Source of the DNA: a virus
Length of the DNA: 34,549 nucleotides
Reading direction: 5' to 3' (one strand)
IMG/VR virus record: IMGVR_UViG_3300045780_000006
Coordinates: 1 to 34,549 of that record
Shown piece by piece: positions 19,998-32,809 of this stretch (its first letter is position 1; the number at the start of each line of letters is the position of its first letter). The position numbers were made by a program, and so were the translations under genes. The notes under the pieces were generated by a model. It searched no databases and was not told the origin of the DNA. It worked only from the letters and a program-made list of their open reading frames with translations.

Positions 19998-20477
19998 TTA
20001 GCCATGCACGAACATTGCAGCATCATCGTGTGCGCGGGACCCTACCTGAGTCGCCCACTTTGATGCGAGCGCTTGTGATGCCACCTCTTCCCAGTCCTGA
20101 TTCCTAACGGCGATAATCATGTTGTGAAATTTGTTGAAGCTTCCCTCGCCCATGAATGCCATATCTACGAGGGCAGATTGGCGCGGAATCGAATATGAGG
20201 TGAAATCTGCAAAAACCTTCGACAGCCACTCGACTGCGGATATGATGCACTGCGAAAGTATCTGGTTGCACTGCTCATCGGTAAGTTCTTGAGTCCCGTT
20301 GAGCAATGCCTGATAGTTCGCACCGGCTCTTTCCACTACGGCTTGCGCTCCAGGCTGCTCCAGGTTAAATCCCACGCCGATGGTCCTGATCCCGAGCGTG
20401 TCGGCGTAGACCTTCAGCCTCTTCCCTTCATGCTTGATTAGCAATGGGGTTACAGTTTCGATCAAAGTGTCTGGCAT
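19998..20477 (-). CDS. endolysin, GH24 lysozyme family (T4-type)
   Basis: A 159-residue muramidase with AAGGAAGG upstream of the ATG. The catalytic triad of the GH24 family is in place: Glu17 (KHEGKRL), Asp26 (VYADTLG) and Thr32 (RTIGVGFN), with the E-8-D-5-T spacing of T4 lysozyme. There is no signal peptide, so a holin is needed to release it to the peptidoglycan. The middle region has LTDEQCNQIL, typical for the helical lobe. The size is normal. It is followed by the zinc-finger peptide and holin and preceded by a 26-residue membrane peptide. Confidence 0.93.
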   Translation of the reverse strand: MPDTLIETVTPLLIKHEGKRLKVYADTLGIRTIGVGFNLEQPGAQAVVERAGANYQALLNGTQELTDEQCNQILSQCIISAVEWLSKVFADFTSYSIPRQSALVDMAFMGEGSFNKFHNMIIAVRNQDWEEVASQALASKWATQVGSRAHDDAAMFVHG

Positions 20478-20502: not shown

Positions 20503-20583
20503 TTAGAACGGAAAACCGACGGCGAGCCAAATACAGAACAAAGTGAAGGTGGTCAGCCAGATAGCTGCGAAAGTGTACTTCAT
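20503..20583 (-). CDS. 26-residue single-pass membrane peptide
   Basis: A tiny gene whose ATG (20583) overlaps the TGA of the fibre gene upstream, with GGAAG as ribosome site. The product begins MKYTFAAIWLTTFTLFCIWL and is almost entirely one transmembrane helix ending VGFPF. The endolysin gene follows after 25 bases. A small pinholin-like or holin-regulating peptide is conceivable. It is short, but the exact stop-start overlap and the ribosome site argue for real translation. Confidence 0.6.
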   Translation of the reverse strand: MKYTFAAIWLTTFTLFCIWLAVGFPF

Positions 20584-21659
20584 AACTTTACTTCCAGCCA
20601 ACTTGTGATGGAGGTTGAGCCACCGCCGTCAACCTGTGTCGCCGTAACAGAAAAGGTTGCTCCTGGAGGAACCAAGAATGACACTCCCGCTATCCCGCTG
20701 CATTGGTTGTACACCCCGTTACCGTAGCCCTGGAATCCATTAACCGTGAAGCTGATCTCTGCATCAGCCCCCGAACATGAGCCAGTCTCAGTCATGCCCA
20801 CTTCTTCCATCACCGGCCTATCGCTCGAATTGGTATACGTGGACCCAGAGTGATAAGTCGAACCGCCAGCGCACACAGCGCTCAAGCAATTCAGTTGTGC
20901 AACTGAACTGCTGCTGCTCACTGAGGTAACTCGCCCTTGTGCGTCCGTTGTAATCGATGAGGGGTTGGCATAAGTTCCAGCCGTACCAGTGTTTGGGAGT
21001 CCGACATTAGTCATTCCAGTCCCATTTGAGGCGGAAATAGTACCGTCGAAATTGGTTATAGGCTGTTGAGGGAGCGCTGTCCCGGCCGTCTGCACGGTTT
21101 GGTAGTACAGAGTTTCCCCAGCCGGAAGCGCATTACATAGTGCATTGCCGTTGGCCGCGATTCCGTAGGCGAAATAGGATGAAGGATTGCAGGCTGAGGG
21201 AGTTGCTGCCAATGCGCTTGCCGTACTCGCGTTGCCTGTCAGTGGGCCAATGAATCCGGCAGCGTCAGTGAGAGCCCCGGTCATTGTTCCACCCTTCGAC
21301 CAATCGTCTACCAGTTCAATATCGGGAACAAAATACTGGCCATATGACGAGTTAATAAGCAACGCGTAGTCCCCTGCCGCTGCGCAGAAGAAGTAGTTTC
21401 CGCCGGCATCGGACGTAAACGGGTTTGTAGGTGTTGCGGTACTGAGCGCCGCTGAGGTGTAGATGCTGACCTTGTTCGCGACGCAATTGGCCGCCGTAGA
21501 CCCCGACGAGCAGAGCGCAACGGACGCGTAGGGGATAGGAGCAATGACGCCGTTTGAGATGGTCTGCGCGACGTTATTGAGGCAAACACCGGTCTGCGCT
21601 TGGGCAAATGCGGCGGCGACGAATAACCAAAGAGAAGTGAGGGAAAGAATGCGCTTCAC
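20580..21659 (-). CDS. fibre-like protein with N-terminal signal peptide
   Basis: A 359-residue protein starting at GTG 21659, with GGAGG upstream. The N-terminus MKRILSLTSLWLFVAAAFAQ is a Sec signal peptide with cleavage near AFA/QAQ. The mature part has a cysteine-bearing domain (GVCLNN, VALCSSG, NCVANK) with a YFFCAAAGDYALLIN segment resembling a small beta-sandwich, then GGTMTGALTDAAGF, typical for phage tail-fibre stalks, and a C-terminal beta-rich region ending in a WLEVKL strand. Fibre stalks of this kind sit at the tail tip and bind the host. A signal peptide on a virion protein is odd; it could be exported and displayed on the host surface. The neighbouring genes are tail and lysis genes. 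Confidence 0.75.
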   Translation of the reverse strand: MKRILSLTSLWLFVAAAFAQAQTGVCLNNVAQTISNGVIAPIPYASVALCSSGSTAANCVANKVSIYTSAALSTATPTNPFTSDAGGNYFFCAAAGDYALLINSSYGQYFVPDIELVDDWSKGGTMTGALTDAAGFIGPLTGNASTASALAATPSACNPSSYFAYGIAANGNALCNALPAGETLYYQTVQTAGTALPQQPITNFDGTISASNGTGMTNVGLPNTGTAGTYANPSSITTDAQGRVTSVSSSSSVAQLNCLSAVCAGGSTYHSGSTYTNSSDRPVMEEVGMTETGSCSGADAEISFTVNGFQGYGNGVYNQCSGIAGVSFLVPPGATFSVTATQVDGGGSTSITSWLEVKL

Positions 21660-21940
21660 ATGGCCTCCGGAGACTTTACCAACTGTGGGCCAGAAACTAC
21701 GGCCTCTTGAGGGTTAGAGTCCTGGCTTACTGTCTGTTGTTCAATGCGCCCAACGATCTGCGTTGAGATGATCTTCCGGCACTCAGGATTGCCACAAAAG
21801 ATGATGGCTCCTATCATGCCGCCAGGGAATATCTGATTCATGATCGAGAGCCTGGCTGGATCATCTGCGCAATACGGGCAGGCTGGCAGCATAACAGGAC
21901 TCACAATAGCGGTTTCGTTCGGTTCGTAAGGCGTTTCCAT
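21656..21940 (-). CDS. small zinc-ribbon protein (94 aa)
   Basis: ATG 21940 follows GGAGG by eight bases; a TTG start five codons upstream is less likely. Two zinc-ligand pairs, CPYC near residue 21 and FCGNPEC near residue 49, form a zinc ribbon. A hydrophobic loop (PGGMIGAIIF) lies between them. The C-terminus is Gln/Ser-rich. Its stop overlaps the start of the fibre gene. Such small zinc ribbons are common among tail-fibre genes; function unknown. Confidence 0.65.
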   Translation of the reverse strand: METPYEPNETAIVSPVMLPACPYCADDPARLSIMNQIFPGGMIGAIIFCGNPECRKIISTQIVGRIEQQTVSQDSNPQEAVVSGPQLVKSPEAM

Positions 21941-21973
21941 GGTTATATCCTCCAAGGCGATTGTAACGCACCA

Positions 21974-23107
21974 TCAATAGCGGTAAAAGGCCAGATGCGT
22001 TGCTGTGGGCGGCGGCGCAATGGTATATGTGATCGTTGCCCCGCTTAATGTAAAGTCGGTTCCATACTTCAGGAGTTGCCGTCCTCGGTAGAGGCGCAAA
22101 CTTGCTGCCGGGTTCGGTGCTTGCGGAAGCGTAAAGACCTTGTTGGTCCCGTTCAGCGTTCCTGTCGGCGTGATCCAATCCGCGAAGTTTGGCGCCGTCC
22201 CGCTCCCAGCGTAGGTGCCCCAAGCGAGGAATGATGCACTGCCAATCGGCACAGACGGGACGATAATGTTCCCGTCAATGATGTAGTAGTCCTCTCCAGA
22301 CTCAGAAATCACGGAGTCAAGTAGACAGCGCGCAGGCTTGAAAAAGTTGATTATTGAGGCCATATAACCGAGTTGATCTAGAGATGGGCCAAAGCTCTGA
22401 AACAGACCATTGCGGTAGAGTTCAATGGAAATCGGCGCTTCTGGAAGTACCAGATTCGACCCTGAGACGGTTGGCACCACAGCATCAAAGTATATAGGGG
22501 TTCCGTCTGTATCCTTCCGCATCAGGACACAAAGAGCAGAATGCAACGCGGGAGCAAAGGACATTGTGAGTCCTGTGCCAGATGACGTGTAATCAATGCC
22601 TGGGTCCTGCAAGAGTCCATTGTAAAAGACGCGCAGAGAACTTCCAACCGGGATAGATGGGAGATTGAATGACCGATTGTAGCCGTCGATGGCTCCGATT
22701 GGTGCTGTACCCGAGCCGCTCACTCCCACGCGGAATACGGCCCATCCCTGGTTGGAGGGATAAGAAGAGCCGCCCCATGATGCCTGCCCCTCGTATATTG
22801 TTGCGGTGAATCCGCACAAGCCAAGAGCTTGGACGATTGCGCCCGGTGTTCCCATGATTTTATGCAACGGAAGAGCATTTTGGGTAATGGTTTGGGGTGT
22901 GACGCCCAACGACTGCATCGGGACGCTGGGAATCATCATGTCGAGTTCCCATATGAGGTAGGGCAAGATGGATACCGGGAGGTTGTTTCCGAGCGTCCTG
23001 ATAAGCAATGGTGTCAAGTCTAGCGACTCAAGGCGCGCTGATAGCAGCATATGAGCCTGGGTCCGAAGGTCATTGATCGATGAAGCGGGCCTGAGATTGT
23101 TTGGCAT
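21974..23107 (-). CDS. tail protein I (P2 gpI-like) with repeated beta domains
   Basis: A 377-residue baseplate protein. The first 110 residues match the gpI pattern: LDLTPLLIRTLGNNLPVSILPYLIWELD, then LPLHKIMGTPGAIVQALGLCGF, as in P2 gpI where this segment links the baseplate wedge to the fibre. After it come repeated beta units with the pattern IDGYNRSFNLPSIPVGSSLRVFYNGLLQDPGIDY, seen again near residue 340 (RLYRGRQLLKYGTDFTLSG). These look like small sandwich domains used for fibre attachment. The protein is longer than P2 gpI (about 175 residues) because of this extension. It is separated from J by a large fibre gene and four small genes, unlike the compact P2 order. Confidence 0.82.
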   Translation of the reverse strand: MPNNLRPASSINDLRTQAHMLLSARLESLDLTPLLIRTLGNNLPVSILPYLIWELDMMIPSVPMQSLGVTPQTITQNALPLHKIMGTPGAIVQALGLCGFTATIYEGQASWGGSSYPSNQGWAVFRVGVSGSGTAPIGAIDGYNRSFNLPSIPVGSSLRVFYNGLLQDPGIDYTSSGTGLTMSFAPALHSALCVLMRKDTDGTPIYFDAVVPTVSGSNLVLPEAPISIELYRNGLFQSFGPSLDQLGYMASIINFFKPARCLLDSVISESGEDYYIIDGNIIVPSVPIGSASFLAWGTYAGSGTAPNFADWITPTGTLNGTNKVFTLPQAPNPAASLRLYRGRQLLKYGTDFTLSGATITYTIAPPPTATHLAFYRY

Positions 23108-23199
23108 GTTGATCTGGCCCTCTTTTGGCCTATCCCTCTATCGTAGTTTCCCGTTTCCTGGTCTGGCACCTGATGGTGAGATGCGATGGTCTATTACGC

Positions 23200-23361
23200 C
23201 TAGATCAGGTCATCCGGTCGAGGACGGTTGGTGTTGTCAATGATGGCCGGAGTTACATCCCCGGCATCTTCCGCTTTCTTTTCGATGCATGGCTGCGGTC
23301 TTTCCGGTTTTTTGTGGCCTGGGTCTGTTGGGTCGTCGGGCTGTGTTGGTTCGTTGGGCAT
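23200..23361 (-). CDS. small Pro/Asp-rich hypothetical protein (53 aa)
   Basis: A 53-codon gene whose ATG (23361) overlaps the stop of the upstream gene (TGATG) and is preceded by AAAGGAG, a very good ribosome site. The product begins MPNEPTQPDDPTDPGHKKPE and is disordered, rich in Pro and Asp, with a single Cys. No family recognised. It would be missed by a size cut-off of 60 codons. A longer ORF on the same strand in another frame (23237-23449) is rejected as a shadow. Confidence 0.65.
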   Translation of the reverse strand: MPNEPTQPDDPTDPGHKKPERPQPCIEKKAEDAGDVTPAIIDNTNRPRPDDLI

Positions 23362-23765
23362 CAAAATCTCCTTTCAGTTGCGGGGTTGATTCCCGCGTCC
23401 TGCGTCTGGTTACGCATGGCGTAAGCTGGGTTTTTTGTGGTTTGTCCAATGGGCGGAGGGACGATACTTTTTGCCTTTCCTCGTATTTCCAGAGACGTGA
23501 AGTACGCCACCGCTCCGGCGAAGAAAAGCGTAAGAATTCCAGCCACTACCTTGCCCCAAAAGATTGAGGTATCGAAGGCGGTGTCGATCCTGTCGAGCCT
23601 TCGACTTAGGTTGGTGTCGATCCTGTCGAGCCTTCGACTCGCCGTGACAACATCAGCCTCCAGACCCTGCTTACCGTTCCCTTTGACGCTTCCCCAGAGG
23701 TCGATTATTGCTTGCTTCATCACGGCTGCCTGCTCCTGGTGCGTACCTTCGATTCTCAACTCCAT
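23361..23765 (-). CDS. small membrane protein with coiled coil and one TM helix
   Basis: A 134-residue protein. An N-terminal helical part carries an 11-residue repeat, RRLDRIDTNLS then RRLDRIDTAFD, encoded by a 27-bp direct repeat. One transmembrane segment follows (VVAGILTLFFAGAVAYF, about residues 73-90), then a basic, Pro-rich tail. The build resembles XhlA- or holin-associated phage proteins. It lies between fibre and tail I genes, not in the lysis cassette, so I do not name it a holin. The start at 23765 has only a weak ribosome site. Confidence 0.65.
   Translation of the reverse strand: MELRIEGTHQEQAAVMKQAIIDLWGSVKGNGKQGLEADVVTASRRLDRIDTNLSRRLDRIDTAFDTSIFWGKVVAGILTLFFAGAVAYFTSLEIRGKAKSIVPPPIGQTTKNPAYAMRNQTQDAGINPATERRF
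23580..23639 (-). repeat. 27-bp direct repeat, period 33 bp, within coding sequence
   Basis: The 27 bases from 23580 recur exactly from 23613. The period of 33 bp keeps the frame and encodes the duplicated segment RRLDRIDT. Probably a recent in-frame duplication extending a coiled coil. Confidence 0.9.
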
Positions 23766-23815
23766 CTTTTCCCCTTGTGATCGTATTTTACTTCTGCGCC
23801 GTGCGATTCGTTGAG

Positions 23816-24031
23816 TTATGCAATCGGAACTGTGACTCCGGCGAGTACGCCACTTCCGGCATCAATAGTCAAAGAGCGCGGTGATGGCGCAGATGCTACC
23901 GAAAGAAAGTTTGTAAGCACAACGGAATTGTCTGTTGGTATTCCTCCGCCAATTTTGGAGCCAGCCGTGAGGTTGCAATCCATGACCGCCCCCAGCGCTG
24001 TCGCTGTAATCACGTTGTAATTCTTGGACAT
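23816..24031 (-). CDS. small hypothetical tail-region protein (71 aa)
   Basis: A 71-residue protein with GAGGAGG before its ATG. The sequence (NVITATALGAVMDCNLTAGS, VVLTNFLSVASAP) has short beta-prone stretches and ends with SGVLAGVTVPIA. It sits directly downstream of the large fibre, where P2-like phages often carry fibre-assembly or small structural proteins. No family recognised. Confidence 0.6.
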   Translation of the reverse strand: MSKNYNVITATALGAVMDCNLTAGSKIGGGIPTDNSVVLTNFLSVASAPSPRSLTIDAGSGVLAGVTVPIA

Positions 24032-24043
24032 TTTTGAACCTCC

Positions 24044-26404
24044 TCAGTTCAAGGTTATTTCGTACCAGAATTCGAGAGTGCCTGAGCTTGAATCACGAGT
24101 CATCTTATAATACTGTCCAGGATGAATCACTCCCATCATGGTGGCTGTATGACCTGATCCCGAAGAACTGGTAGAGAGAGTGTCAAGTCCGTTTGATACT
24201 GAAGAAGTCGATCCGACATTCAGCGAATATGCACCATCCGAAGATGACGGCCAGCCTGCAATAACTAGAATGTCTTTCGCACTCGTGTTCTGATAAACTG
24301 TTTCCAAAATACGGGTAGATGACAGGTTACCTAGGCTCGACGATGCTAGATTGATTGAATACTCAAACCAGTGGCTAAGGGTTCCCGATCCGCTCACGGC
24401 TTCGTAATACATGTTTGGCAACACAACGCCCAACATCGCCGCGTTTCCCCCGCCATCAGAAGACTGGTCCCACACCGGAGTAGTTAGGGAGGGAGAGGTA
24501 TCGCTGAGTATCTTATTGGCGCTGCCGTTCGATTCACCGGTCAGATCAACCATTACAAAAAGCAGATCAGAGGTTGTATTCTGGTATGCCGTAGAAAGAG
24601 ATTTTGAGCCGACAATATCTCCTGAGAAACTTCCTCCAGTGGGAAGTTGATATATCTGTCCCGGCGTTTGGGGGGTTGCTGAATTGGGATATTGAAAATA
24701 TTCTCCCGGCATTACAATGACGTGGCTATGGACAGAACCTGTTGTCGCGAGACCTTCGTAAGACGCCCAGCGAGTTGTGATTGTGGATGGGGAGCTTCCG
24801 GCAAGCCACAAAGTGTTTGGATTAACGGAATTTGACCCTACCAGCCAAAGTGGGTACGCCGATACATTTTGATATATCAAGTTCGACATATAAGCAGAAG
24901 TGCTTCCCTGGGAAAAGACGGACACTCCGGAGGGAGCCAAAGCAATGAGCGCTCCCCCGCCGCCCCCGCAGGCCGCACCAGTATTTGTGATGTGGCCGGT
25001 CGAGTCCTGCTGCAAGCAGTAAGGACCGCCGCTTGCCGGATGTGACCCGAACAGGTAAAGGCTCGTAATTGTAGGGTCTCCGATAACTGCCTGATACGAC
25101 GCTGAATTGTTCTGCATCCCTACGGCGATGGCATTTGTCAGAACCGCGCCCACGTTGTCGGCAGACCGGTGACCAATCTGAATCACATCTGAGGATGCTG
25201 CACCCAGGTTGTTTCCAACGTTTCGACCAATCCCGATAATATTATCCGAACCCGCACCAATTGTCGCAGCTACATGAGTGCCCACGCCGATAATCTCTGA
25301 ACTTCCCGCGCCGATACCTTCCACCGAATTATAGCCATACCCGAACACGTCATCACTCCCGCTGCTTACGGCGTCTGTAACATACGCACCAATCCCGATA
25401 ACATTGGCGCTGTTAGATACACCACCCCCGGCATTGGTCCCGATTGCGATGATTTCTCTATTACTGCCCGATGTTGATCCAGTCCAACCCTCTCCAGAGT
25501 TGTTACCGATGGCAATTCCGTTAGTGGTGTTGGTAGAAGTTGCTGCTGAATTAATCCCGATTGATACGAGATTTATGGAATTAGTGCAACCCGATGCTGA
25601 GTTATCTCCTATAGATGTAACCTCCTGGCAGCCATTCAGTCCTTCTGCCGAGTTACTGCCAATAGCTATTAAATCATTTACGTTGCTGCCTTGTACGTTA
25701 GGACAGGAATTACTGCCTATACATATCGGATTATCCACGCCGCCGGACGTTGCGTTGTGCAGCATGGAGCTTCCCGAATTATTGCCGATAAAAATAGGCT
25801 CGGCCACAGATCCACTTGTTGCGCCCCCCAACAAACCCCAACCAGCATAATTTCCAAGAACGATTGGAGCGTCAACAGCATGTGTTGTTGCGGTCAACGC
25901 ACCCCAACTCTGCGCAGAGGCGTTGCCGATGATTACCGCGTGTTGGCCATAACCAAGAGAGCCGGATGTTGCATTTTTCCCGAGAATTACATCGTCACTT
26001 CCCAGCGGCATGAGCATCTGGCTTTCGGTTGCACCGGATGAATCAAGGAAGTTGAGCGTGTTTAGTGGCGTGGTTGATGTTTGCTTGACAACAGAGTTCC
26101 CCAGCGATGTGTCCCCAGTCCACACGGGCAAGTACCCCGCCGTGCCGCTACCAGAGATATTCTTCACCCACCCAGAGGATGAGCATTTGTACTCGACATC
26201 GTTCGTCGTGTCCTGATAAGGCTGACCCCACTCTGCGCCGTAGGGGTAGACGGTATAGTTTCCATTCTGAGTGCAAGTGATCGAAGGCGCGCCAGGACCG
26301 GAAAGTTTATTCCATTGAATCTGGTAAGTCGGGTCAACCTGCGTCTGCGCAAAGCAGGTGATAACTGACAAGATCAAGAAAAGAAAGATCGCGATTCGTT
26401 TCAT
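24044..26404 (-). CDS. large fibre protein: signal peptide and YadA-like beta-roll repeats
   Basis: A 786-residue protein with AGGAGA upstream. The N-terminus MKRIAIFLFLILSVITCFAQ is a clear Sec signal peptide (cleavage near CFA/QTQ). From about residue 130 to 440 there are many repeats around the theme IGxNSxxG (AIGSNSAEG, SIGDNSASG, SIGINSAA, AIGNNSGEG, AIGTNAGGG), as in trimeric autotransporter heads and some phage fibres; they form a left-handed beta roll in trimers. The C-terminal 300 residues hold two related beta domains with GEYFQYPNS and GQYYKMTRDS. A phage fibre with such repeats is plausible; a signal peptide on it is unusual. It lies between J and I and may be an acquired module. 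Confidence 0.8.
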   Translation of the reverse strand: MKRIAIFLFLILSVITCFAQTQVDPTYQIQWNKLSGPGAPSITCTQNGNYTVYPYGAEWGQPYQDTTNDVEYKCSSSGWVKNISGSGTAGYLPVWTGDTSLGNSVVKQTSTTPLNTLNFLDSSGATESQMLMPLGSDDVILGKNATSGSLGYGQHAVIIGNASAQSWGALTATTHAVDAPIVLGNYAGWGLLGGATSGSVAEPIFIGNNSGSSMLHNATSGGVDNPICIGSNSCPNVQGSNVNDLIAIGSNSAEGLNGCQEVTSIGDNSASGCTNSINLVSIGINSAATSTNTTNGIAIGNNSGEGWTGSTSGSNREIIAIGTNAGGGVSNSANVIGIGAYVTDAVSSGSDDVFGYGYNSVEGIGAGSSEIIGVGTHVAATIGAGSDNIIGIGRNVGNNLGAASSDVIQIGHRSADNVGAVLTNAIAVGMQNNSASYQAVIGDPTITSLYLFGSHPASGGPYCLQQDSTGHITNTGAACGGGGGALIALAPSGVSVFSQGSTSAYMSNLIYQNVSAYPLWLVGSNSVNPNTLWLAGSSPSTITTRWASYEGLATTGSVHSHVIVMPGEYFQYPNSATPQTPGQIYQLPTGGSFSGDIVGSKSLSTAYQNTTSDLLFVMVDLTGESNGSANKILSDTSPSLTTPVWDQSSDGGGNAAMLGVVLPNMYYEAVSGSGTLSHWFEYSINLASSSLGNLSSTRILETVYQNTSAKDILVIAGWPSSSDGAYSLNVGSTSSVSNGLDTLSTSSSGSGHTATMMGVIHPGQYYKMTRDSSSGTLEFWYEITLN

Positions 26405-26415
26405 GCTTAAATCTC

Positions 26416-27702
26416 CTAGCTAACTGGTTGATTTTTTGTTCCCATTACAACCGCAAGATTTATATTTTCGCAGTTTGCCCATTGCCCTGATGTGAGCAAG
26501 AAACTGCCGTCTGAAGTTGGCGTAAGTGGAGTCCCTCCGATGTTTGCTGCGAGTGTCAGTTGCATATCGTATACCCCGGATACGCTGAGAGCTGATTGCC
26601 ACTGACTCAGGACTATGTCCTGCTCAATATTTGCAGCGAGCGTTAAGGCAAGATTCTGCGCCGCTGCGGTGATTCCAGCGGCAATCGTCGCATAGTTCGC
26701 GTTTGCATAGAGAGTGATCGCCCCGGTCACTGTGTAGTCAACTTCCGTCACAGCGGAGACAATCACGCTATCGCAAAGAGGACGGACATTTTGAGCACTC
26801 AAAGCCGATTGGACAGCAGAAAGCAGAGTGCCAGAGGCGATACCCGAGCTGTTAGGGGATGCGGAAGGCTGCGTTACGGGTCCTGTCAGGACATACACCT
26901 GCACCGTGCCCGGCGTGGTTGGTTGCGTCGGGACTTGCACATCAACGATCGTTGAACTCACGTCAAGCGCCAGTGATCGGTACTGTCCCGACGGCCCCGC
27001 TGTAGTGAGATTGTTCGGTGCCGCCTGAATGCGCGCACGGTAGTGGTTGTCTCCAGCGGTCGTTCCGGCTGGCTCGCCGTTGCTCCCATTGGCCGTCGTG
27101 GCAATGTTCGTGACGATGGCCACGAGCGGGAATGAGCCCAACAGGACGCTCACCTGCCCTGCAATGTAGCCGTTACCACTGAGGCCCGCCGTGGTGCATT
27201 GGACTCCCACCGTGCCCACCGTCTGTCCGACTGCAATCACGAGCGCCGCAGTGGTAGCGAAGATGTTGAGACCGTCTTGAGTCCCGATCTGCGTACCAGC
27301 GGGGATCGTCGTTGGCGTGAGTTGCGCCGCGGTGAGCGTGAATTGTTCAGTCGTCGTAGCGGGCTGCGCGGGGAGCCTGGTGCAGCCCAAATACTCGCCG
27401 ATGTAGTCCAGCATCGGGTAAACAGCGAAGGCGAGCAAGTTCTGAATACCGCAATACTGGATAGCGTTGCGCAGCAGGATTTCTCGGTAGGCATAGAGGT
27501 TGATAAGCAACTGCTCAACCTGGGCGGGGTAGAGAGTCCGGCTGGTGTAGCTCTCAAACAGCGTCACCATGTCGTTCAGGACACTCGTCGGGTCGAGGCC
27601 ATCTGAATCATTGACGAATGATGGCGTAGGCAGGTCAACAGGGACCGTCTGAGGGGTGCCGGTTGCGGATGGAAAAGAAGAATTTGGGACGATCACCGGC
27701 AT
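26416..27702 (-). CDS. baseplate assembly protein J (P2 gpJ-like)
   Basis: A 428-residue baseplate wedge protein. The N-terminal helical part (TSVLNDMVTLFESYTSRTLYP, QVEQLLINLYAYREILLRNAIQ) and the middle beta domain beginning TPTTIPAGTQIGTQDG are typical for gpJ/Mu gp47-like proteins. A segment EPAGTTAGDNHYRARIQ is the conserved turn before the second half. It assembles with gpW and gpI in the wedge that links sheath and hub. The order W then J is as in P2. The length is longer than P2 J (about 300), like many J proteins of other phages. It begins one base after the stop of gpW. Confidence 0.9.
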   Translation of the reverse strand: MPVIVPNSSFPSATGTPQTVPVDLPTPSFVNDSDGLDPTSVLNDMVTLFESYTSRTLYPAQVEQLLINLYAYREILLRNAIQYCGIQNLLAFAVYPMLDYIGEYLGCTRLPAQPATTTEQFTLTAAQLTPTTIPAGTQIGTQDGLNIFATTAALVIAVGQTVGTVGVQCTTAGLSGNGYIAGQVSVLLGSFPLVAIVTNIATTANGSNGEPAGTTAGDNHYRARIQAAPNNLTTAGPSGQYRSLALDVSSTIVDVQVPTQPTTPGTVQVYVLTGPVTQPSASPNSSGIASGTLLSAVQSALSAQNVRPLCDSVIVSAVTEVDYTVTGAITLYANANYATIAAGITAAAQNLALTLAANIEQDIVLSQWQSALSVSGVYDMQLTLAANIGGTPLTPTSDGSFLLTSGQWANCENINLAVVMGTKNQPVS

Positions 27703-27703
27703 A

Positions 27704-28159
27704 TCAGGACACTCCTCCGACTTTAATAACCGTCATCTGCGTCAAGTTTCCAAGAACGCTGTTCGCTTGGTTTATCAACCCAAGATTGGGCTGCCAAGTG
27801 ATCGCTACGTTCAACTCTCCGATGATCTCAAGGCTGGCCGTCACGTCGATATTCGTGACCAATATGCGCGGCTCCCATGTGGCAATTGCTGCGGAGACGG
27901 CACCGACTATGGCCGGGATTGCCGCAGTCAGAGGGCGGTCAAGGAATTGAGTGAGGTTGCATCCGAAAGTGGGGCGCCATGGGTCTTCTCCGGGGATGGT
28001 GCTGAAGATGATCTGCAAGGTCTGGTGTACGTCGCCGAGGGCTTGACAAACTTTTCCGAGTCCTGATCCCGCCACCCCTCCCGCCGTCGAGTCAAGCATC
28101 AGCTCCCAGCTCGACGACTGGATGTTGGTGAGGGTCGCGTATGGGAAAGTCGTTGCCAT
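27704..28159 (-). CDS. baseplate protein W (gp25-like)
   Basis: A 151-residue protein of the gpW/gp25 family. The conserved core is visible: LGDVHQTLQIIFSTIPGEDPWRPTFGCNL, with the short IPGExxxxPxFG turn typical of gp25-like wedge proteins, and a C-terminal beta hairpin. It starts the wedge around the hub and helps sheath assembly. Its ATG overlaps the stop of the spike gene (TGATG). The N-terminus is longer than in P2 W. No anomaly. Confidence 0.88.
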   Translation of the reverse strand: MATTFPYATLTNIQSSSWELMLDSTAGGVAGSGLGKVCQALGDVHQTLQIIFSTIPGEDPWRPTFGCNLTQFLDRPLTAAIPAIVGAVSAAIATWEPRILVTNIDVTASLEIIGELNVAITWQPNLGLINQANSVLGNLTQMTVIKVGGVS

Positions 28160-30455: not shown

Positions 30456-31034
30456 CTAGGCAGCCCTCGCAATCGTGTTCAGCGGGACATTCGTATACGG
30501 CGTCTGTGCCGGTATGCCAGAAGGGGAAGCCGTGGCAGGACTCACGACAAGCGTCGAACCGGCCGCCGCGCTCTGTGATGTAGTGAGCCCTGGTGGATTG
30601 GTGTTGATTGTTGAGTTGCCGATGGTCCCGACCGTCATGGTGTTGCTTTGGAGCGTGGACGGTGCGACATACTCGGTTAGCTCAAGATCCATCTCCGCGG
30701 CGATTACAGAGCCGTCATCGGCCATCCACCGCTGCTTTAGCCGGTAGTTCGAGATGACGAAGGTCCCGAGGATGTTCTTGTTCCCAAAGACGAACTGCTG
30801 CGGAACGTGGAAGTCGGCAAGCTGTGTCAGTGCGTTGATGGCCGTCTGGGGTTTGCACCAAAAGTTATGAAGGTAGATCGACAGTTCAACGTGGCGCAGA
30901 TCGTCATAAGTCCACTGCAACACAGGAGGCGCACCGATCACGGTGATGGCTTCGTAGTGGTACTTCTTATCGATCTCCAGCTTTGTCGGACTGGCGAGAG
31001 GCTGAAACGAGATGGGACCGAAAGAGGCGAACAT
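30456..31034 (-). CDS. tail protein U (P2 gpU-like)
   Basis: A 192-residue protein. The N-terminal 140 residues have the gpU pattern: MFASFGPISFQPLASP, YHYEAITVIGAPPVLQWTYDD, QTAINALTQLADFHVPQQFVFGN, GTFVISNYRLKQRWMADDG. It works with the tape measure at the tail tip, setting or closing tail length. The C-terminal 50 residues are Thr/Ser/Pro-rich and probably flexible. Its ATG overlaps the tape-measure stop. Confidence 0.88.
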   Translation of the reverse strand: MFASFGPISFQPLASPTKLEIDKKYHYEAITVIGAPPVLQWTYDDLRHVELSIYLHNFWCKPQTAINALTQLADFHVPQQFVFGNKNILGTFVISNYRLKQRWMADDGSVIAAEMDLELTEYVAPSTLQSNTMTVGTIGNSTINTNPPGLTTSQSAAAGSTLVVSPATASPSGIPAQTPYTNVPLNTIARAA

Positions 31035-32809
31035 TAGCGTGCCCCCTCAAGTGCTGGACTACCAAAACTACGTCGAGCATCCTGATGCATCGCGTCACGT
31101 TGGAAGTTCATCCAATCATCCAAACTGTTTCTCAGGGCGCCATGAACCGCTCCCCCGATAGCTTGCGGGTCCGCATCCCCGCTTACGTGAACATGGACAG
31201 TGGGAGAATAACTTGAGCTTCCTGCTCCGGCCATGCCAACATCCACACCTGCTGCGCCGAAGTTTCCTGCGGCTACGTCACTGATGACATTTCCCCAGTC
31301 CTTCATCGTCCCAACGTGGAGGAAGTTTTCAACGGCCTCAGATGCTCCCTGGATTGCCTCTGTAATGTCCTGCCAGTGCTTGTAAATCTCATAGCTTCCA
31401 ATCGCAATGGCTGCAACTCCTGTGATGATCCATCCAAGTGGATTCGACTCGAATACAAGTCCAAACGCAAGTCCAATATCTTCCAGCCCCCCAGTGAAAA
31501 GTGCGACAGTCAAAGCCCATGCCCCTTGCATGGTTTTCAATAGAAGCATAAACCCGGAAACATGAGCCGCAAGTTCAATAAACGGCAACACCAGCTTCCC
31601 AACTCCTACTACTCCGGTGAGCGTAACAATTCCGGCTGCCATCAGCCCAAAGTCTGTTCCAATTTTGACAAGTTCCGGATGAGCTTTGGAGAATTCGGTA
31701 ACGGCCACCGTGAATCCTTTCAGCGAATCGGTGATTCCGTCCATCTGAGGTTTGAGTCCTGATCCCAACGCAACGCCTAGATTTTGCGCTGCATTGGTCA
31801 TCTCTTTGAAATGCGAAGACATAGTGTCACCCGCATCTTTTGCGCGCTTGGCCGCCTCCCCCTCATCGTCGTTGAACTGCGCCAGAATCTTATCCATGTC
31901 GCCGGTGTTCTGAATCAGTAGACCGAGGGCATCATTCTGCCCTTTCATTTGGTTTACGAGACTGGACCGGACAGATGGAGTAAGACCGGCGATCTGCTTC
32001 AGGGTTGCAATCAGGTCGAGATGCTTTTCTTTCGTGCGCTGGATGTGCAGACCGTACCGAGCTAGTTCGTTTGTCCCGTTCTTGTCCGATTCAGTGAGTT
32101 TGTCGATGATGCCTTTGACCACGATCGCGGCGCCAGCCCGGCCGCCCTGCCCTAGCTTGCTCAGTTCCGCCCACACCGTGAAGAGTTGGTCCACATCCAC
32201 GTGAGTCTTGCCGGCAACCTGCCCCAACTGCCGCAAGTCCCGCTCCATGTTGCCGACAGGAGCGTCAGACTTCAGGAACCCCGCGCGCAACAGCGCCAGG
32301 TTGTCGGAAAGCTTCTCAAGGGACTCGTTTGTGTCCTTGCCTTTCATCTTCAGGTTCTCGAATGCTGAGCCGAGGATGTTTGATCCTGTCGTCGCATCCA
32401 CCCGCAAGGCTGTTGCGAGCTGCGTGGCGATCTCCGTAGCCTTCAGGGTGGCGCCTACGTCCCCAAGCTTCTTGTACATGTTCTCTTGGGCTGTGGTGAT
32501 GTCCTCCGCGGACTTCGGGAACTTGATGGAAAGCTCTTCGGCTTGCTCCTGAAACTGCTTCAGAGCCTCTGCGCTGTCGTTCGTGACCATCCGCAGACCA
32601 ACCTGGGCATCTTCAAAGGCAGAGGCGGGCTCGATAATGCCCTTCAGCATCTCGTAGCCCGCTCCAATCTCCAACGCTGAATACCAGATGCCGTGAAGGC
32701 TGTCCGAGAACGCTTCGAAGCTCTCGCTCACCTTCTTCAGCGGCTCTGTGGCCTCGTCGCGGAGTTGGACGAGAACCTTCAGTATGGATGTTTGATCGTC
32801 TTCGCTCAA
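31034..32809 (-). CDS. tail tape measure protein T
   Basis: A 591-residue protein with long helices and a hydrophobic middle to late section (FGLMAAGIVTLTGVVGVGKL, ALTVALFTGGLEDIGLAFGL, GWIITGVAAIAIGSYEIY), the usual build of tape measure proteins. A TP901/P2-type core with alpha-helical repeats lies at residues 60-330. It sets tail length and is ejected with DNA. TTG start overlapping the stop of the E' frame (TTGA), with GGAGG six bases upstream; this overlap supports the unusual start. The C-terminal region is Gly-rich, then ends with basic helices. It is shorter than P2 T (about 815), implying a shorter tail. Confidence 0.9.
   Translation of the reverse strand: MSEDDQTSILKVLVQLRDEATEPLKKVSESFEAFSDSLHGIWYSALEIGAGYEMLKGIIEPASAFEDAQVGLRMVTNDSAEALKQFQEQAEELSIKFPKSAEDITTAQENMYKKLGDVGATLKATEIATQLATALRVDATTGSNILGSAFENLKMKGKDTNESLEKLSDNLALLRAGFLKSDAPVGNMERDLRQLGQVAGKTHVDVDQLFTVWAELSKLGQGGRAGAAIVVKGIIDKLTESDKNGTNELARYGLHIQRTKEKHLDLIATLKQIAGLTPSVRSSLVNQMKGQNDALGLLIQNTGDMDKILAQFNDDEGEAAKRAKDAGDTMSSHFKEMTNAAQNLGVALGSGLKPQMDGITDSLKGFTVAVTEFSKAHPELVKIGTDFGLMAAGIVTLTGVVGVGKLVLPFIELAAHVSGFMLLLKTMQGAWALTVALFTGGLEDIGLAFGLVFESNPLGWIITGVAAIAIGSYEIYKHWQDITEAIQGASEAVENFLHVGTMKDWGNVISDVAAGNFGAAGVDVGMAGAGSSSYSPTVHVHVSGDADPQAIGGAVHGALRNSLDDWMNFQRDAMHQDARRSFGSPALEGAR

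Follow-up and report, generated by a model that had tools for sequence, protein, structure and literature searches.

A late tail operon with two putative fibre genes that bear export signals

The window analyzed here is a stretch of 34,549 nucleotides of DNA from a soil phage (IMG/VR record IMGVR_UViG_3300045780_000006, positions 1 to 34,549), which is itself a partial record. Its minus strand carries the late operon of a contractile tail, in which gpD/gpV-like genes are also included (Table 1). Two fibre-like proteins of 786 and 359 amino acids (aa), hereafter fibre 1 and fibre 2, are encoded beside the baseplate and tail genes, as is characteristic of the fibres and tailspikes of tailed phages, and small genes lie between fibre 1 and the tail protein gpI. 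A preliminary description of the window gave the sequences and coordinates of both proteins correctly (translation of the 359-aa protein starts at a GTG codon), and proposed that both begin with signal peptides for the host Sec system.

Table 1. Features of the late operon on the minus strand of the window. A slash marks a predicted cleavage site.
Feature	Coordinates	Strand	Family or remark
Tape measure	31034-32809	minus	part of contractile-tail late operon
Baseplate wedge, gp25-like	27704..28159	-	PF04965
Baseplate J protein (gpJ)	26416..27702	-	PF04865, E 7.6e-43
Putative fibre 1, 786 aa	24044..26404	-	signal peptide, conserved N-domain, beta-roll repeats, variable C-terminus
Fibre 1 predicted signal peptide, residues 1-19	26348..26404	-	predicted cut CFA/Q
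Fibre 1 conserved N-domain, residues 20-82	26159..26347	-	QTQ.DPTYQIxW...C...YGQ.YQD...YxC...GW
Fibre 1 beta-roll repeats	25217..25957	-	IGxx motif
Tail_P2_I (gpI), no signal peptide	21974..23107	-	PF09684; C-terminal extension of ~270 aa
Conserved 94-aa CPYC...CGNPEC protein	21656..21940	-	overlaps start of fibre 2
Putative fibre 2, 359 aa	20580..21659	-	signal peptide, tailspike-type attachment domain, shaft, C1q/TNF-like tip (predicted)
Fibre 2 predicted signal peptide, residues 1-19	21603..21659	-	predicted cut AFA/Q
Fibre 2 residues 28-117	21309..21578	-	modeled fold like Pan3, Sf6 and P22 tailspike head-binding domains
Fibre 2 residues 252-359	20583..20906	-	modeled C1q/TNF-like beta-sandwich tip, swapped wholesale in relatives
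Phage lysozyme	19998..20477	-	PF00959; directly downstream of fibres

The fibre 1 gene has an ATG start and an AGGAG ribosome site, and the fibre 2 gene has a GTG start that is preceded by GGAGG and overlaps the stop of the preceding gene. Fibre 1 begins with MKRIAIFLFLILSVITCFA and fibre 2 with MKRILSLTSLWLFVAAAFA, each followed at the predicted cut by Q. Both N-termini exhibit the n-, h- and c-regions typical of substrates of Sec and signal peptidase I (SPase I), namely a positive n-region, an uncharged h-region and a small-x-Ala site that precedes Gln. To score such sequences we used a purpose-made, rule-based test calibrated on shuffles and controls. Both fibres pass, and otherwise only a borderline 71-aa open reading frame (ORF) passes among the called genes of the window. 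By chance, 3.5% of shuffled N-termini pass, as do 23% and 8% of the two proteins' own shuffles. Because hydrophobic N-termini can pass in this way, one sequence alone is weak evidence, and relatives were therefore used to decide the matter. A lipoprotein signal was also considered and rejected, since there is no conserved lipobox and the cysteine in the fibre 1 sequence ...TCFAQ is replaced in two loci (L007 and L093).

The signal peptides are conserved where sequence is not

Search patterns for relatives of fibre 2 were placed outside the signal peptide, and all 42 IMG/VR viral loci that encode such relatives align with it from residue 1. Close relatives differ at 4-9 of the 19 signal-peptide residues and all pass the test; neutral drift would lower the pass rate to 0.55 at 8 changes and to 0.19 at 13. 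The signal peptide has a dN/dS ratio of 0.18, and the mature domain one of 0.07. Remote members, at 37-49% identity, have unrelated but valid signal sequences over their initial ~19 residues, and conservation begins at the cut (MWHKLVGLSLILTTGFALA before QAPGGVC, MKKLLSLALLFAAQLVAVA before APVGVC, MKRTLSAFVAFASFLAATCYA before QSAPGGVC). The small-x-Ala site followed by Gln is likewise retained across unrelated sequences. Fibre genes unrelated in sequence at the same locus (L027, L033, L044, L107, L110, L112) are also signal-bearing, and nearly all complete fibre genes of the examined loci carry an export signal.

Purifying selection acts on the signal peptides, which are retained in many lineages. 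This conservation settles that the signal is real, and the two genes are predicted to encode precursors with signal peptides of a working type. The proposal that both proteins carry Sec signal peptides is therefore borne out by the test and by the 42 loci.

Among 148 distinct non-fibre proteins encoded at the loci, including gpI, gpJ, gp25 and gpV, not one has a signal peptide. The same is true of ten annotated fibre or spike proteins of seven proteobacterial phages that possess gpJ-gpI modules, and gpJ relatives at a greater distance (28-35% identity) likewise lack such signals. The absence of an export signal, which is usual for fibres although not strictly defining, does not extend to the fibres described here. 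Thus, the statement in the preliminary description that virion fibres need no signal peptide holds for the seven comparison phages, but is probably a wrong inference for these proteins.

The same data bear on the idea, also raised at that stage, that fibre genes derive from host surface proteins by capture, and on a form of it in which the capture is recent and the signal peptide a relic without a role. These signal peptides do look like ordinary bacterial ones. However, they are retained under selection in many lineages, and 84,980 genomes of bacteria and archaea, scanned twice, yielded no relative of the 359-aa protein, which makes recent capture highly improbable.

Some loci contain larger or more numerous signal-bearing proteins. 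In L118 (10178-13075) and L117 (11925-14693), whose gpJ is 50-53% identical, one large cysteine-rich protein with a signal peptide is encoded downstream, and the other tail genes have none. Three consecutive signal-peptide fibre genes, encoding proteins of up to 1242 aa with 28 cysteines, are present in L152 (G006 46872-54773) and L107 (9793-14780), suggesting fibre arrays of differing specificity.

Cysteine counts point to cleavage and oxidative folding

Even cysteine numbers are preferred in exported bacterial proteins, according to a passage in PMC7678975 that cites Dutton et al. 2008. Of the 30 clusters of mature signal-peptide fibres, 27 have an even count (p 4e-6), or 26 of 29 without the single non-fibre protein in the set (L149), and clustering at 40% gives 20 of 23 (p 2e-4). 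When the signal peptide is included, the count is even in only 16 of 30 clusters, because many signal peptides contain one cysteine. Four complete sequences found later have 32, 14, 14 and 6 cysteines, all even. These fibres are also rich in cysteine (median 2.06%, versus 0.80% in other proteins of the loci; p 7e-9), and C26, C50, C59 and C92 are invariant in the mature N-domain of fibre 2. Together, the even mature counts, the cysteine richness and the four invariant residues argue for cleavage and oxidative folding. The parity indirectly supports cleavage and a location outside the cytoplasm, and the combined sequence features strongly suggest that the fibres are exported and folded oxidatively.

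A hydrophobic N-terminus could alternatively remain uncleaved as a membrane anchor or as a hydrophobic plug of the virion, such that fibres wait on the inner face of the membrane or particle assembly is completed at the membrane; late membrane steps of this kind would also need such an N-terminus. Nevertheless, the small-x-Ala site before Gln is kept, conservation begins at that site, and the cysteine count becomes even only after the signal peptide is removed. We consequently regard an uncleaved anchor as improbable.

The mature N-terminus of fibre 2 resembles a virion-attachment domain

An AlphaFold2 model of fibre 2, built with 20 relatives, has a mean predicted local distance difference test (pLDDT) value of 56, and two of its domains are usable. 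Foldseek alone was noisy; domain ranges were taken from VIA-align. Residues 28-117 align with the head-binding domains of the tailspikes of Pan3 (Z 8.8, root-mean-square deviation (rmsd) 2.6 over 79 residues), Sf6 (gp14N, Z 8.1) and P22 (gp9, Z ~7.7-8.0), with an rmsd of ~2.5-3 for most rows. For residues 252-359, the aligned structures are trimeric heads of the C1q/TNF-like type (Z ~7-8). C-terminal domains are swapped between close relatives, in the manner of a variable receptor-binding C-terminus.

A direct search of the fibre 2 N-domain profile against PDB sequences gave nothing convincing, and so the profile link runs via a set composed of enterobacterial tailspike N-domains and gp12 of Tunturi_1. 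This set is matched by the fibre 2 profile (hhalign probability 90%), and itself matches a PDB 'Tailspike head-binding domain' (7eeq, E 2e-4) and Pan3. In the enterobacterial tailspikes, which lack a signal peptide, the matched stretch is preceded by 7-15 residues. Fold and profile evidence together thus assign a predicted N-terminal virion-attachment domain to fibre 2. No sequence relatives of the tested fibres were found among named phages and plasmids.

Fibre 1 has no Pfam match even at E 10. Its N-domain is found behind different signal peptides in records of 37-231 kb with other tail genes, and residues 150-395 contain 11 IGxx motifs, spaced mostly by 17-23 residues, compared to 0.67 expected. 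A signal peptide and beta-roll-like repeats are shared with the YadA-like trimeric adhesins, and a YadA-like surface adhesin had indeed been proposed. Unlike those adhesins, however, the 786-aa protein has no Pfam match or anchor domain, including the C-terminal YadA anchor, and its gene is located in a baseplate operon, so that this assignment finds no support. The signal peptide and N-domain of fibre 1 form a recurring cassette in other backbones (L159, L162, L163/L164, L166, L160/L161), including records of 140 and 231 kb.

Two relatives carry terminal repeats (38 and 98 bp) and are apparently complete genomes, and all fibre genes seen in them carry signal peptides. Because of the attachment domain, the swapped tips, the gpI/gpJ neighbourhood and the lack of any other fibre gene, we infer that both proteins belong to the virion and serve as its receptor-binding proteins.

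The main rival explanation is that the fibres are exported but are not mainly virion parts. They would instead be periplasmic, surface or released proteins that mask receptors, block superinfection or degrade polymers. Signal peptides and cysteine parity would suit any exported protein, sister signal-peptide fibres carry pectate-lyase-like and chitobiase C-terminal domains (along with a weak GDSL match below the cut-off), and gpI has a C-terminal extension of its own. Against this stand the resemblance of the mature N-terminus to a virion-attachment domain, the position of the genes inside the baseplate operon, the lack of another fibre gene in the two apparently complete genomes, and the fact that no outer-membrane anchor is seen. 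We consider such a function unlikely as the principal one, and it may hold together with a role as virion fibres.

Isolated phages and the probable host

Tunturi_1 and Tunturi_2 are isolated podoviruses of Tunturiibacter, a genus of Acidobacteriota (PMC11924767). In the tail module of Tunturi_1, signal peptides are present on gp12, gp13, gp14, gp16 and gp17, whose mature forms contain 20, 10, 20, 1 and 32 cysteines, respectively. The N-terminus of gp12 is of the tailspike type, and a C-terminal stretch of gp17 is 50% identical to signal-peptide fibres of our set (L027/L028/L009). Tunturi_2 carries such genes too. The signal peptides of these fibres are not mentioned in the report on the Tunturi viruses (PMC11924767). 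No signal peptides were found on the tail proteins tested of Tunturi_3, 4 and 5, which infect the same host genus, and their comparison genes have even cysteine counts in 10 of 22 cases. The host therefore does not require the trait, which belongs to phage lineages. The phage of the window likely infects Acidobacteriota, an assignment that stays indirect because the genome scans gave no relatives, and that is drawn from the C-terminal stretch shared with gp17.

These genomes also speak to the suggestion that the proteins are displayed on lysogens, as lysogenic-conversion adhesins or superinfection-exclusion proteins. The export signals and the beta-roll repeats of fibre 1 would fit such a role, and one of seven longer relatives (58-64 kb) has an integrase. 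However, a tyrosine integrase has no match in the other six or in Tunturi_1 and Tunturi_2, a serine recombinase has none in any of the seven or in these two phages, and an integrase has none in the two apparently complete relatives. The late-operon position, the tailspike-type attachment domain and the lack of an anchor are further arguments against lysogen display, which we judge to be very unlikely. Hence, of the original proposal for these proteins, export is upheld by conserved signal peptides and cysteine parity, and the surface role on lysogens finds no support.

A proposed model of two-compartment virion assembly

We propose that the two proteins are receptor-binding tail fibres that are exported by Sec, disulphide-bonded in the periplasm and attached to tails at lysis, and we give this explanation a probability of roughly 0.58. 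Fibres would be made as precursors with cleavable signal peptides, cross the inner membrane via the host Sec channel and lose the signal peptide. The mature proteins would then fold in the periplasm with disulphide bonds. When lysis breaches the inner membrane, the fibres would join finished tails via the tailspike-type N-terminal domain. As an added effect, exported fibres may occupy the cell's own receptors until lysis. The assignment as virion fibres is suggested by domains, position and the lack of other fibre genes, and attachment at lysis would follow as the last step. A broader proposal is that virions are built in two compartments in this manner by tailed phages of several unrelated lineages, which probably infect Acidobacteriota: heads, tails and baseplates would be made in the cytoplasm, and Sec-exported, periplasm-oxidised fibres would be mounted only at lysis. 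For this we see even odds.

Several observations weigh against this explanation. The tested tail proteins of Tunturi_3, 4 and 5, phages of the same host genus, carry no signal peptides. Cysteine counts are odd in 3 of the 30 clusters, and the control of non-signal proteins within the loci gives a weaker contrast (21 of 33 even, Fisher p 0.018), in part because missed fibres are still in it. Z values near 8 are not decisive alone and could reflect a common arrangement. The AlphaFold model of fibre 1 is poor (pLDDT 36) and unusable beyond residue 85. Finally, the long C-terminal extension of gpI could itself be the tip.

Relation to known systems

Fibre 2 is like the tailspikes of P22, Sf6 and Pan3 in the fold of residues 28-117, the N-terminal placement of this domain, the swapped receptor-binding C-terminus and the tail or baseplate neighbourhood. 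It differs from them in the predicted cleavable Sec signal peptide that precedes the attachment domain, in the four cysteines that are invariant in its mature N-domain, and in a cysteine-rich sequence with even counts. The order of late genes, baseplate J, tail I and fibre, is shared with the P2/Mu-like gpH fibres beside gpI. In contrast, comparison fibres of the P2/Mu type have few cysteines and no signal peptide, and here a fibre gene is also placed between gpJ and gpI.

In the textbook view, the particles of tailed phages are completed in the cytoplasm. Use of the host Sec system for a late lysis protein is known from Lys44 of phage fOg44 and the SAR endolysins (PMC6116005), which are similarly Sec-dependent late proteins, but are lysis enzymes rather than receptor-binding virion proteins. 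Tail fibres and tailspikes are likewise known. Searches limited to open-licence papers turned up no account of tail fibres that, as a class, carry Sec signal peptides, a result that does not establish their absence from the literature at large. If true, widespread secreted, disulphide-bonded receptor-binding precursors would change the rule of cytoplasmic assembly and pose the problem of how the two parts of the particle come together. The advantage could lie in receptors that are masked ahead of lysis, or in the greater toughness of oxidised fibres. Automated annotation may also mistake such fibres for secreted proteins of the host. The idea is testable in isolated phages, given that Tunturi_1 and Tunturi_2 carry such genes and the tested tail proteins of Tunturi_3-5 have no such signals.

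Other features of the operon

The ~270 extra C-terminal residues of gpI contain repeated 'G.N..F.LP..P...L.....G......D.T.SG..' motifs, and this extension may act as a short tip or as a docking site for a fibre. The zinc-ribbon-like 94-aa protein has a stop codon that overlaps the start codon of fibre 2 in the window and in relatives, possibly reflecting translational coupling. Lastly, a 26-codon ORF at positions 20503-20583 of the minus strand (MKYTFAAIWLTTFTLFCIWLAVGFPF), predicted to form one hydrophobic helix, overlaps the stop of fibre 2 and precedes the lysozyme gene; it could encode a holin-like peptide or have arisen by chance.

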